A stretch of DNA of 64,000 nt from Nostoc sp. T09 (lineage in GTDB: Bacteria > Cyanobacteriota > Cyanobacteriia > Cyanobacteriales > Nostocaceae). Positions 36,251 to 42,788 of the stretch are shown here, one piece after another. Numbering within the stretch: the first letter of the stretch is position 1; each line of letters begins with the position of its first letter. The translations under genes and the position numbers were made by a program. The DNA lies in NCBI RefSeq assembly GCF_002154695.1, contig NZ_MTAV01000221.1, positions 1 through 64,000 of the forward strand, in the 5' to 3' direction. A model generated the notes under the pieces. The model had not been told where the DNA came from. It did no database searches and saw only the letters and a program-made list of their open reading frames with translations.

Positions 36251-36715
36251 TTAGGTTGAAGAAAAAGGTTTAAGCCAGCCAATTTGCATAGCGGTATCGA
36301 TAGCCATAGCCGCGATCGCAAACCACGATACACTCTCAAAAGCCAATACCAGATAAGGCAAGACTGTAGCAGTAGAATTCCAGCCAACTTCTATCTGAGT
36401 TAAGCCTCGTACCAAGCCAAAAGCAAATACACCACCAGCTTTCAGTTGAGGATTCCGATCTAGGCGAATGATATAGCGGTAGGTGACACCAAACAGCAAG
36501 CCAGAGAAGGAAGCGATCGCCCCACTCAGCAAAAAATCTAAATTCAGCGGCGCAATTTCTAGATTCGCGAGTATCGGAAAATACTTTGCCAGCACTAGGG
36601 TATGCAAAAGACTAGAAATAATGAAGGCTAATAACAGGCAAATACCCCCAATTATCCCAGCTTTCAGCGATTCTAGGCGTTCTGCCATCAGTTGAGGCTC
36701 TAAAATTTTGTTCAC
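36251..36715 (-). CDS. Four-helix integral membrane protein
   Basis: 154 residues, with hydrophobic segments at about 17-45, 60-82, 92-108 and 115-145. It lacks a known motif; short hydrophilic loops (RLDRNPQLKAGG) separate the helices. Similar small proteins are widespread in cyanobacteria without known function. It is divergent from petN, whose start is 164 nt away. Confidence 0.75.
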   Translation of the reverse strand: MNKILEPQLMAERLESLKAGIIGGICLLLAFIISSLLHTLVLAKYFPILANLEIAPLNLDFLLSGAIASFSGLLFGVTYRYIIRLDRNPQLKAGGVFAFGLVRGLTQIEVGWNSTATVLPYLVLAFESVSWFAIAAMAIDTAMQIGWLKPFSST

Positions 36716-36878: not shown

Positions 36879-36968
36879 ATGGCGATTTTGACACTGGGTT
36901 GGGTATCACTCTTGGTCGTATTCACTTGGTCAATTGCAATGGTAGTTTGGGGTCGTAACGGACTATAG
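36879..36968 (+). CDS. petN: Cytochrome b6f complex subunit VIII
   Basis: A 29-residue protein that consists of a single membrane helix: [15 protein letters not shown], then [14 protein letters not shown]. This is the almost invariant PetN sequence of cyanobacteria and chloroplasts. PetN is required to assemble or stabilise the cytochrome b6f complex in thylakoids, which moves electrons from plastoquinol to plastocyanin. No strong Shine-Dalgarno is seen directly before the ATG (only GTGGGA). Confidence 0.96.
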
Positions 36969-37421: not shown

Positions 37422-40400
37422 ATGGAAAACTCCTCTACGCTACAACCCATACAACCGAATTCAGCCCCACAAGAACATTTGCCAGAACAGACACTACCGT
37501 CCTACCAAGGTGAGAAACATAAAGCTTTATCTAGAGTAATCGCTAGGATTCGCGAGTCACTGGATATAGACACCATTTTCAAAGTTACAGTCACTGAGGT
37601 ACGTCAGTTGCTGAACACTGACCGGGTTGGAGTGTTTCGTTTTTATCCTGAATTAGATTGGGAAGGGGAATTTATTTATGAGGACGTAGGTGAGCAATGG
37701 AGTTCGGCACTAAAAGCTAAACTGCGTGACCACTGCTTTGCTGCGGATTTTGCCGGACTTTATCAGCAAGGTCGAATTAAAATCATGGACGATATTTATC
37801 AAGCCATGATTACTGATTGCCATATACAGATTCTAGAAAAATTTCAAGTACGCGCTAATATTGTTGCTCCCCTGATGAAAGGTAAAGAGTTATGGGGCTT
37901 GTTGTGTATTCATCAATGTAGTGGACCTCGGCAATGGGAAGCATCAGAAGTTGAATTTGTGCAACTCATCGGCGAACATTTGGGAGTTGCCTTGCAACAG
38001 GCAGATTACCTAGAAAAAGCGAAATTACAATCAGCACAATTAGCACAAGCAACAGCAAGAGCAAAAATAGCAGAATGGCAGAAAACTATATCTATAACGA
38101 TTGAGAAAATTCGTCAGTTTCTCGATTTGGAAAGCATTTTCCGGACTAGTACAGAAGAACTGAGAAAACTGCTGAATGCTGACCGTGTTGCTATCTACCG
38201 TTTCCATCCAGATTGGAGTGGTGAATTTGTATTTGAATCAGTAGCAGCAGGCTGGAATTCTCTCATGGAAGAACAGTTGCGGCGGCCCGAGTTGGGTGAA
38301 AACGTTAGCGACTGTAGTGCCAAGGATTTAGCTGAAGCCCCGGTTATGGATACTTACTTACAAGATACAGACGGTGGTCGCTTCACAAGAGGCGAAGTGT
38401 ATCGTGTTTGTAATGATATTTATAACGCTGGGTTTACCGACTGCTACATTAAAGTCCTAGAAAGCTATCAGGCAAAAGCTTATGTGATCATTGCTATTTA
38501 CCACGGTCAAAAGCTCTGGGGCTTGCTAGCTGTTTACCAGAACAATGGAAGCCGCGATTGGCAAGAAGATGAGGTCTACTTGCTCACCCAAGTTAGTACC
38601 CAACTAGGCGTAGCTTTGCAGCAAGCCGAGTTCTTACAACAATTGCAGACCCAAGCAGCAGAACTGACCAAAGCTGCCGAAAGACAAAGGGCCTTGGCAA
38701 ATACTGTAGAAAAAATTCGTCAGTCCTTAGATATTGACACTATCTTTAAAGCTACTACTCAAGAAGTGAGGCGGCTGTTAGAAGTAGAAAGAGTTTCAAT
38801 TTATCGCTTCTACCCTGATTGGAGTGGTGAATTTGTTGCTGATTCAGTTGCTGATGACTGGACACCAACAGCAAGAACGCAGTCTGTAACAGAGCAAGTC
38901 CTTTTGTTAGGAACGCCAGCAGGCAAATATGCACGTCATGAAGTCTTTGTACCAATTTCTCAAGGAGAGAAACTTTGGGGATTGTTGGTAGCTTATCAAA
39001 ACTCTCAAGCACGCTATTGGCAAGATGAGGAAATAAATTTGCTGGCACAAGTTGGTGTGCAATTAGGAGTAGCAATCCAGCAAGCAGAAACCTTAAAGCA
39101 GGTACAGATACAAGCACAGCAACTAGCTCAAGCTGCGGAACGAGAACGGGAAGCTGCGGAACGAGAACGCAAAGCTACCGAAAGGGAGAAGGCATTAGCT
39201 GCAACGGTAGAGAAAATTCGTCAGTCCCTTGATCTTGATACTATCTTTGCTACCAGCACTCAAGAAGTCCGACGGCTATTAGAACTCGATCGAGCCACAA
39301 TTTATCGTTTCCGCTCTGATTGGACTGTGGAATTTGTTGCTGAATCATTAGCCCATAATTGGACACCAAATAGGGAAGTTGTACCTTTAATTATCAAGGA
39401 TTATTTGCAACAAACCCAAGGCAGAGACTACGCTAACAGTAAAATTTTAGTTATTAAAGATATTTATAGCACCGAAGATTATACTAGTCAGATTGCTCTA
39501 CTCAAACCAATTGTAGCTAGAGCATATATGATTGTACCGATTTTTCAAGGTGAGAAAATTTGGGGCTTGTTGGCAGCATATCAAAATACCAAACCCCGCG
39601 ATTGGCAACAAGATGAAATTGATTTACTAGTACATATTGGCAATCAATTAGGAGTAGGTCTTCAGCAAGCAGAATTACTGGACCAAACTCACCGTCAAAA
39701 AGAAGAACTTAAGGAGACCCTGCAAGAATTGCAGCAAACTCAAAGCCAGTTGATTCAAAGTGAAAAAATGGCTGGTTTAGGACAGTTAGTGGCTGGAGTA
39801 GCCCATGAAATTAATAATCCGATTAATTTCATTTATGGCAACATCACCCATGTCACTGAGTACGCTGAAGACTTATTGAAATTACTACATATTTATCAAA
39901 AAAATTATCCTAATCCGAAAGCAGAAGTTCAACGGCAAGCAGCAGCACTAGATTTAGATTTTATTGCGAAAGACTTGCCTAAAATTCTTAATTCTATGAC
40001 TGTTGGGGCAGAACGGATTAGTGAATTAGTACTGTCATTACGTACTTTTTCACGCCTAGATGAAGCCGAAATGAAGCCAGTTAACATCCATGAAGGTATT
40101 GAAAGTACCTTATTAATCTTACAACACCGTCTAAAACCACAGGCTGATTTCATTGCTATTGAGGTAGTTAAAGAATACGGCGAATTACCAAAAGTACAAT
40201 GTTATGCTGCTCAAATAAATCAAGTTTTGATGAATGTTCTCAGCAATGCGATTGATGCTCTAGAACACTCAATAATGGTAGAAAAAACCTTAGAAAATCC
40301 TAAAATTCAGATTTGTACAGAAGTAATAGATGAAAACTCGATTTTAATTCGCATTGCTGATAATGGTTGTGGCATAGCAGAAAGTGTGCGATCGCGGATT

Positions 40401-40568
40401 TTTGACCCTTTCTTTACTACTAAAGAACCAGGTAAAGGAACTGGTTTAGGGCTATATATTAGTTACCAGATTATTGTAGAAAAACACGCTGGTCAAATCA
40501 AATGTTTTTCCGAACCTGGGAAAGGTTCTGAGTTTAGGATACAAATACCCATCAAACATTCGGTTTAG
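37422..40568 (+). CDS. Tandem-GAF histidine kinase with cyanobacteriochrome signatures
   Basis: 1048 residues: four GAF domains (about 35-195, 225-395, 425-560, 595-750) joined by coiled coils, then a histidine kinase (AHEINNP, His about 795; [17 protein letters not shown]). GAF1 holds DHCF (Cys105), matching the DXCF motif, and [15 protein letters not shown] with Cys133, the canonical bilin-attachment position. GAF2 has [12 protein letters not shown] and DCYIKVLE with Cys341, like red/green cyanobacteriochromes but with Cys-Tyr where Cys-His is usual. GAF3 lacks that segment and GAF4 has Ser at the position. It is probably a soluble bilin-binding photosensor that signals through phosphotransfer. 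Response regulator not seen. Confidence 0.9.
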
Positions 40569-40775: not shown

Positions 40776-41006
40776 ATGATTAAAGTCACAATTACCTTAG
40801 AAGAAGACATTCTGCAATTTATCGATCTCCAGGCACAAGGCAACCGCAGTGGATATATCAACGCACTGCTAGCAGAACATCGCCGTCAGATTTTAGAAGC
40901 AGAAATGATTGCTGCCCTCAAGCAAGATGCTGAAGATCCAGAATATCAGGCTGAAATTGCAGCTTGGGATCGTGTTGTTGGGGATGGGATTAATGCCAGG
41001 GAGTAA
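40776..41006 (+). CDS. Ribbon-helix-helix antitoxin
   Basis: 76 residues. The N-terminus (MIKVTITLEEDILQFIDLQ, then GNRSGYINALLAEH) is a ribbon-helix-helix DNA-binding domain; the acidic C-terminal half is the usual toxin-binding tail. It would repress its own operon and neutralise the MazF/PemK-type toxin whose start overlaps its stop by 14 nt. The toxin gene is frameshifted, so the antitoxin may now be orphaned. A ribosome binding site AAGAGG precedes the start. Confidence 0.85.
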   Translation: MIKVTITLEEDILQFIDLQAQGNRSGYINALLAEHRRQILEAEMIAALKQDAEDPEYQAEIAAWDRVVGDGINARE

Positions 41007-41348
41007 TTTAACTTATCGACGAGGAGAAATCCGTTGGGTGAATCTTGATCCGACAGTGGGGGCTGAGGCGCAAAAAATTCGTGCTTGTTTGATTGTGCAG
41101 AATGACATTATGAATCAGTATGGATTGCTGACAATTGTCATGCCATTTAGACCAGGAAGTAAGCCCCTTATGTTGTCAATGTGAAAGCAACACCAACTAA
41201 TGGATTGGATCAAGATCGATTTATTAATATTGGGCAGATTCGTGCTGTTGACAATCGCCGGGTTTTGGAAATGCTTGGTGTATTGGAAGATGAATACTGG
41301 GAGCAAATTCGCACAGCTTTAAATGTGGTTTTGGGATTTGTAGATTAA
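40993..41348 (+). pseudogene. Frameshifted MazF/PemK-family toxin
   Basis: The first part (from ATG at 40993) reads TYRRGEIRWVNLDPTVGAE, QKIRACLIVQND and VMPFRPGSKP, standard for MazF/PemK ribonucleases. At a CCCC run (41164-41167) the frame slips; the rest, YVVNVKATPTNGLDQDRFIN followed by IGQIRAVDNRR and a full C-terminal helix, continues in the -1 frame to a TAA at 41346. A single lost base (for example one G, restoring Lys-Ala-Pro-Tyr) explains it. The gene is otherwise complete, so the mutation looks recent, or could be a sequencing error or programmed slip. Confidence 0.85.
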
Positions 41349-41600: not shown

Positions 41601-42788
41601 ATGAGCAAATTATCTGAATACCCAATGACTGATAAACCATTTCGATGTGGTCATTGTGGTAATACAACTGTGATGCAGAAGATAGCTGTTAATCAGTATA
41701 TTCGGACTATGGACAAAGGTACACCCGATCAATATCAAGTTGAGTATAAATGGCATCTTTTAGTATGTTGCACTTGTGAAGAAGTAAATCTTATTGAATA
41801 TTCAATCTGGCCTGATCAGGAAAAAATATATATTTTTAATGATGGGGATGAAGAGATATACAGGATAGAACCTGACGAAAAGTATTTATATCCATCATCT
41901 AATGATTTTACACATTTAAAAGAAGCTTCAACAATACTTAAACAAACATATCAAGAAGCTTTAAATTGTTTTAAATCAGGCCTATACACAGCAACCGTAA
42001 TTATGTGTAGAAAAACAGTTGAATGTTTGTGTGTAATACAGTTAGAAATTACAGAGCCTTACAAACTATCTGATAAAATCCAAAGAATGCTAGATGACGG
42101 ATGTATAGATAAACTGCTATACGATTGGTCAATGACTTTAAAGCAATTTGGTAATATTGCAGTACATCAGTTCAAAACATTTACTAAAGATGAGGCTCAA
42201 GACATTTTAGATTTTACCTATGCTTTAGTTGAATACTGTCTAGATTTCAAGTACAAATTTGCAAAGCTTAAAACCAATAGAAAAATAAAAAAACAATCTC
42301 AACAGTCCGAACAAGAAGTTCAACTAAATAGTTTAAGTAATTCTGAATTGGAGTCTTTAGATAAAATGTTAAGCGATCAAAATGAATTACTCCGTTATTA
42401 TGGAGCCATAAGTTTGGCAAAAGCAAATGTAAAAGTTGAAAAAATAGTACCTATATTAATCGAATTTTATCATCAAAATAACTTTAAACAGATAAAAAAT
42501 GAAATTATTGCCTTTGTGAGAAACTTTGGCTCAGTAGCAGTGTCAGAATTAATTAAATTACTTACAGATTCCTCAACTACGAAGGAAATTCGGATTATGG
42601 CTGTCAGTACTTTAGGAGATCTGGGATTTGAGGCAAAAGAATCTATACCAGCGCTTTTTGATGCACTTGCAGATCCAGATGTTAACGTTCAAGCTACTCA
42701 TGCTCTAATCAAAATCGGGGGTGAAGCTGTTTCTTCTGTGATTAAAATATATGAGGAAAAGCTAAATTCTGCTACCCCAACATTATAG
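41601..42788 (+). CDS. DUF4145-HEAT repeat protein
   Basis: 395 residues. A zinc-ribbon-like start (FRCGHCGNTT with CCTCEEVNLI near 57) leads into a DUF4145-type helical domain (about 105-215; hallmark RKTVECLCV and FGNIAVH). From about 240, four short HEAT-like repeats follow (LLRYYGAISLAKANVKVEKI, EIRIMAVSTLGDLGFEAKES). DUF4145 occurs alone and with restriction or nuclease genes, but its function is unknown. The gene is AT-rich compared with its neighbours, hinting at horizontal transfer. A small membrane protein gene lies 52 nt downstream. Confidence 0.8.
   Translation: MSKLSEYPMTDKPFRCGHCGNTTVMQKIAVNQYIRTMDKGTPDQYQVEYKWHLLVCCTCEEVNLIEYSIWPDQEKIYIFNDGDEEIYRIEPDEKYLYPSSNDFTHLKEASTILKQTYQEALNCFKSGLYTATVIMCRKTVECLCVIQLEITEPYKLSDKIQRMLDDGCIDKLLYDWSMTLKQFGNIAVHQFKTFTKDEAQDILDFTYALVEYCLDFKYKFAKLKTNRKIKKQSQQSEQEVQLNSLSNSELESLDKMLSDQNELLRYYGAISLAKANVKVEKIVPILIEFYHQNNFKQIKNEIIAFVRNFGSVAVSELIKLLTDSSTTKEIRIMAVSTLGDLGFEAKESIPALFDALADPDVNVQATHALIKIGGEAVSSVIKIYEEKLNSATPTL

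Follow-up and report, generated by a model that had tools for sequence, protein, structure and literature searches.

A probable DXCF plus insert-Cys cyanobacteriochrome histidine kinase in Nostoc sp. T09

The window analysed here, a stretch of 64,000 nucleotides from Nostoc sp. T09, contains a photosensor kinase gene on the forward strand (37422–40568), as are all domains and codons given below. Its 1048-aa product has the order GAF1-GAF2-GAF3-GAF4-histidine kinase, as established from the open reading frame, its translation, Pfam and 58 orthologues of at least 70% identity. Pfam matched GAF in four stretches (E 7.7e-83) and HATPase_c once (E 1.4e-23), so that the domain content is far beyond chance; no separate HisKA match was returned for the 1048-aa product. 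The histidine kinase core (aa 780–1045; 39759–40556) comprises the H-box HEINNP with His795, kept in 58/58 orthologues, and the HATPase_c domain, which bears out the histidine kinase output proposed in a preliminary description of this DNA. The residues quoted in that description are all present (DHCF at 103–106, DIY at 124, Cys133-His134, FQVRAN, DTYLQ at 310, GGRF and Cys341-Tyr342), and in the translation GAF3 and GAF4 indeed lack a canonical cysteine. Its span of 37422–39700 has to be extended, since the frame continues to 40568 and the kinase core had been omitted.

Orthologues were taken as loci with at least 70% identity over more than 850 aa. This threshold retained 58 of 80 loci, themselves kept from 114 relatives; the other 22 loci, together with loci from the window's own genome, served as non-orthologue material. 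Such proteins are common: of the 217 genomes of the family searched, 112 (the window's own included) gave a match with an E-value no higher than 1e-250. One orthologue, L016 of Nostoc carneum NIES-2107, comes from a record with the title plasmid1.

Upstream of the kinase gene on the same strand is a frame of 29 aa (36879–36968) which, from its protein sequence, we take to be petN, encoding a cytochrome b6f subunit. It is found upstream and on the same strand in 55/58 orthologue loci, at a distance of 318–1020 nt from the aligned start, and the linkage holds also in loci with otherwise different neighbours; in the sequence examined of L045, L057 and L065 it was not found. Outside the orthologue set it also lies upstream in L046, L062, L067 and L074, and it was not found near L068, L069 and L071. 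The idea that petN and the kinase share an operon gained no support: in the window the two are 453 bases apart with a small open frame between them, and co-transcription is unsupported. A limited literature search returned no paper treating petN and a cyanobacteriochrome together. A homologue of the frame at 36251–36715 is found in 49/58 loci and one of the exonuclease in 31/58, some loci being cut short. Downstream of the kinase, 41601–42788 encodes a protein with DUF4145 and HEAT repeats, and the open frame 40909–41184 gives a partial match to a PemK/MazF-like toxin (profile positions 1–45 of 109), perhaps a fragment. ARAGORN, and Rfam at gathering score, gave no matches in the 64,000-nt window.

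GAF1 (aa 36–195; 37527–38006) is of the DXCF type on its motifs, its orthologues and the GAF tree. The class combines a cysteine within DXCF with a canonical bilin cysteine; in GAF1 these are Cys105 of the DHCF motif at 103–106 (codon 37734–37736), conserved in 57/58 orthologues, and Cys133 (codon 37818–37820), conserved in 56/58 and followed by His134. Phe106 is kept in 58/58, whereas position 134 varies, with Tyr in 29 orthologues, His in 28 and Gln in one. Cys105, Cys133 and His or Tyr at 134 are retained together in 55/58 orthologues. When GAF1, GAF2 and AnPixJg2 are aligned jointly, the Asp of the DXCF motif and the canonical Cys of GAF1 share columns with their counterparts in the other two, and in a 107-row GAF tree GAF1 grouped with DXCF domains (29 rows, SH-aLRT 98). 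The earlier assignment of GAF1 as a two-Cys DXCF domain holds. In the DXCF class the bond to C10 is labile, and many members carry phycoviolobilin. Typical DXCF domains are blue/green (PMC11284453).

GAF2 (aa 225–405; 38094–38636) is where our analysis departs from the preliminary description. Its proposal of a cyanobacteriochrome histidine kinase in which the two bilin-type GAFs are of different kinds, one of them DXCF, is supported; its red/green label for the second does not stand. Judged by motifs, loop, orthologues and alignment, GAF2 is an insert-Cys domain, not a red/green one. Insert-Cys domains are defined by a CXXR/K motif in an insertion loop plus a red/green-like Asp motif (PMC5578081; PMC5240096). 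The class is further characterised by a second thioether, to C10 of the bilin, and by a dark state in the near-UV or violet. GAF2 has an extended loop from Trp278 to Met309 (38253–38348) with the CXXK motif Cys298-Ser-Ala-Lys301, as well as a canonical Cys and the DTYL Asp motif. The loop, counted from Trp278 to the Asp, has 32 residues as against 14, 14 and 15 in NpR6012g4, AnPixJg2 and Slr1393g3, which makes it 17–18 residues longer, and alignments to solved red/green domains required an insertion before DTYLQ. The insert-Cys, Cys298 (codon 38313–38315), is found in 58/58 orthologues, Lys301 in 56/58 and DTYL in 58/58; the canonical bilin cysteine Cys341 (codon 38442–38444) and the following Tyr342 are each kept in 58/58. 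A hand-chosen alignment of 32 GAFs (that of the window and 31 from the 80 loci) shows no variation at Cys298, Asp310, Cys341 or Tyr342. Red/green domains are marked by WXDXXL with its Trp (PMC11284453). GAF2 has VMDTYL, with Val308 where that Trp would be expected two residues before the Asp, and no Trp occurs at residue 308 in the window or any of the 58 orthologues. Two cysteines of GAF2 had been overlooked, namely Cys298 of the insertion and Cys330, which precedes NDIY; the latter (codon 38409–38411) is a third conserved cysteine, found in 58/58 orthologues.

To place these residues in a wider context we used 88 GAFs outside the orthologue set, a set fetched by likeness to the window's GAF2. 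Tyr follows the canonical Cys in all 36 insert-Cys GAFs, three rows of which come from domain-deleted orthologues (L046, L062 and L067). Among the 22 single-Cys GAFs the residue is His in 21, Leu in one and Tyr in none, and among the 15 DXCF domains it is His in 10 and Tyr in five; the remaining 15 GAFs have no canonical Cys. A Cys before NDIY, as at position 330, is found in 22/36 insert-Cys, 3/22 single-Cys and 1/15 DXCF domains, frequencies that are biased upwards because the set was fetched by GAF2 likeness with VCNDIYNA among the search patterns. In the window's own genome, GAFs were read in 14 of 30 loci, using a pattern search in which some domains may be missed; there are at least two more insert-Cys GAFs, both with Cys-Tyr, in a 1765-aa protein. 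The same protein has one GAF without insert that also carries Cys-Tyr, and Cys-Tyr alone is therefore insufficient as a mark of insert-Cys domains. In this 1765-aa frame (L120/L121, contig C157) the two insert-Cys GAFs are consecutive and are followed by red/green-type GAFs; the protein is perhaps the homologue of the published NpF2164. A further insert-Cys-like GAF, at residues 38–219 of the L080 ORF, has Tyr in place of the insert-Cys and Ser in place of the canonical Cys.

For phylogeny, 395 GAF stretches were found and the 265 longer than 110 aa kept, which excluded GAF3 from the GAF trees. Among the rows of the 107-row tree, made by a quick method, are three domains of the window kinase, four reference domains and 7 of 58 orthologues; the near duplicates L082, L086 and L088 were omitted. 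The tree separates the window's GAF1 from its GAF2 by well-supported branches (98, 99), and puts GAF2 outside a 10-row group that holds the three red/green references (90). That group includes one insert-Cys GAF (L083), the insert-Cys GAFs L079, L084 and L087 fall elsewhere, and GAF4, which has no insert, lies inside the 39-row group of the window's GAF2 (92). Insert-Cys rows are thus scattered, one 70-row group (99) holds both kinds, and the tree does not cleanly separate insert-Cys from red/green domains; it is the loop with its cysteine, and not the tree, on which the insert-Cys assignment of GAF2 is based. An AlphaFold2 model of GAF2, built on the 32-row alignment, had a mean pLDDT of 79 and a pTM of 0.78, with pLDDT below 50 at model residues 79–96, directly after the insert-Cys (model residue 78). 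The top Foldseek matches were 6xhg (E 2.6e-18) and 3w2z (E 3.3e-18). As modelled, the fold of GAF2 is that of a cyanobacteriochrome GAF.

GAF3 (aa 423–570; 38688–39131) is a compact GAF in which the bilin-pocket segment is missing, and it is compact in 58/58 orthologue loci. It shows the highest mean pairwise identity among orthologues (0.877), followed by GAF2 (0.822), GAF1 (0.817), the kinase (0.778) and GAF4 (0.753). Invariant positions number 68/148 in GAF3, 73/181 in GAF2 and 92/266 in the kinase. In four distant relatives with overall identities of 50–62%, GAF3 is 66–73% identical, exceeding GAF2 in L068 and L074 and falling slightly below it in L069 and L071. It is conceivable that GAF3, better conserved than the neighbouring light sensors, forms a constant core of the protein and serves as an input that needs no bilin or as an obligatory coupler. 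With petN next to the gene, near-UV/blue perception could then be gated by another cellular signal while light channels, GAF4 above all, were gained and lost around GAF3. We consider this unlikely. L046 and L067 consist of GAF1-GAF2-kinase only and L062 has no GAF3, which argues against an essential role.

GAF4 (aa 601–762; 39222–39707) appears to be an eroded sensor, its canonical Cys being replaced by Ser689. The cysteine is found in 16/58 orthologues, and it changed at least six times on the family tree, counted without inferring direction. In five genomes the match stops at residue 562–572, in frames of 841–867 aa, which would fit a loss of GAF4.

A published counterpart is NpR1597 of Nostoc punctiforme. 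Its second GAF domain, NpR1597g2 (UB1), is reported to have C298 as second cysteine and to undergo a UV/blue cycle (PMC5240096; PMC5578081), and its second bond does not break, unlike those of the other three insert-Cys domains compared (PMC5240096). The insert-Cys of the window protein likewise lies in the second GAF and has the number 298, as it does in 39/58 orthologues counted from the aligned start; the number differs (288–299) in 17/58, and the start is missing in two. An orthologue from N. punctiforme NIES-2108 (L047) is 74.5% identical to the window protein. Because the insert-Cys has the same number in the second GAF, and given the GAF order and the distribution in the family, the window protein is most likely the orthologue of NpR1597. 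NpR1597g4 is described as photoactive, red/orange, with a dark reversion of 3.5 h (PMC6121604). This implies a canonical Cys in GAF4, where the window has Ser689, a difference that counts against the orthology, as do the deviating Cys numbers; the red/orange channel should therefore be lost from the kinase in the window's genome.

Two residues were considered as the cause of the stable second bond in NpR1597g2, and both were rejected. Tyr342 is a poor candidate, since Tyr follows the canonical Cys in all 36 other insert-Cys GAFs, and the 1765-aa protein likewise has Cys-Tyr in each of its two insert-Cys GAFs. As for Cys330, the position is Thr in one of the latter two GAFs, which resembles NpF2164g2 on a guessed homology. 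NpF2164g2 is called stable in PMC5578081. CH motifs in insert-Cys domains are mentioned in PMC5240096; since the insert-Cys rows here have Cys-Tyr, we took "CH" as the name of a region.

We also weighed whether GAF2 might, after all, be a red/green domain with an incidental Cys298. Its best solved relatives are red/green or far-red, namely 6bhn, 5zoh and 3w2z by sequence and 6xhg and 3w2z by fold, and GAF2 shares the DTYLQ and GGR context, as well as the 70-row group, with red/green domains. Red/green structures are, however, to be expected as best matches, because no insert-Cys structure had been deposited according to PMC5240096 (2017). The absence of the Trp before the Asp throughout the orthologues, the 32-residue loop and the invariance of Cys298 all argue against a red/green domain, as does the Tyr after the canonical Cys, seen in 36/36 other insert-Cys GAFs and 0/22 single-Cys GAFs with one single-Cys exception elsewhere. 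We therefore regard a red/green GAF2 as very improbable. Our preferred reading, to which we give a probability of about 0.87, is that the protein is a DXCF plus insert-Cys cyanobacteriochrome kinase; the UV/blue subtype of GAF2 is less sure.

Two variants would be compatible with a DXCF plus insert-Cys kinase. GAF2 might be of the labile insert-Cys type, violet/orange or near-UV/green like NpF2164g3, Mbr3854g4 and Mbl3738g2, given that the second bond is labile in three of four insert-Cys domains that PMC5240096 compares and that residues at beta-2 and helix 4 tune the colour. Against this, GAF2 shares its Cys number and its position among the GAFs with NpR1597g2, which is reported there to be UV/blue with a second bond persisting in both states, and the labile type seems to us rather unlikely. 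The other variant would make GAF2 the sole working sensor, with GAF1 decaying like GAF4. Key residues of GAF1 are lost in 3/58 orthologues, L032 (both Cys), L059 (Cys133 to Asp) and L027 (residue 134 to Gln), and the domain-deleted relatives L067 and L062 have EHSF and NHCF, respectively, instead of DXCF. The joint retention of Cys105, Cys133 and His/Tyr134 in the other 55, and an identity of GAF1 (0.817) near that of GAF2 (0.822), make such decay decidedly improbable.

Concerning chromophore, colours, bond chemistry, signal direction, partner and all photochemistry, we infer the following for a DXCF plus insert-Cys kinase. GAF1 would bind a bilin via Cys133, and Cys105 would add to its C10 to give a blue-range dark state, being released on photoconversion. 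GAF2 would bind phycocyanobilin via Cys341, with Cys298 of the inserted loop adding to C10; orthology makes a near-UV/blue switch most likely, with the second bond retained in either state. The pocketless GAF3 may be a relay or dimer support, and GAF4 a former red/orange sensor whose cysteine was lost. The two thioether-based short-wavelength switches would then bias one C-terminal orphan kinase (His795), which may phosphorylate a response regulator; none was found among eight neighbouring frames scanned. A single member of the bilin reductase family (PF05996, E 6.5e-82) was matched in the genome. Of the two colour ranges proposed previously, the notion of two light inputs survives; both inputs are now predicted to be short-wavelength, from near-UV to blue.

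The correction matters because a red/green label would point experiments to the wrong wavelengths, whereas a near-UV/blue prediction follows from the loop cysteine Cys298. A loop Cys together with Cys-Tyr is offered as a candidate sequence test for insert-Cys domains. The 58 orthologues, many of which have lost one light channel but kept the others, should be useful for studying how inputs are weighed in multi-sensor kinases. The details that appear to be new are the Tyr after the canonical Cys in insert-Cys GAFs, the erosion of GAF4 and the linkage to an upstream petN.

Among known systems, DXCF cyanobacteriochromes such as TePixJ have the DXCF motif and canonical Cys in common with GAF1; TePixJ is annotated as a chemotaxis protein, and its architecture differs from that of the window kinase. 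With the red/green (XRG) domains AnPixJg2, NpR6012g4 and Slr1393g3, GAF2 shares the overall fold and the Asp motif, but it differs in having no Trp, a longer loop and a second Cys; insert-Cys tuning is held in PMC5240096 to derive from an ancestral red/green domain. As described in the same paper, NpF2164g3, Mbr3854g4 and Mbl3738g2 have the CXXR/K motif in an insertion loop, the DTYL-type Asp motif and the canonical Cys in common with GAF2; their second bond is reported to be broken and remade, and they are located in other proteins. NpR1597, by its published description, resembles the window protein in having an insert-Cys domain with Cys 298 as its second GAF; the name g4 means that it has four GAF domains or more. 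The window's GAF4 differs in that Ser replaces the canonical Cys. The window protein, under its corrected assignment, looks like a sensor of an already studied kind, and an ordinary one.
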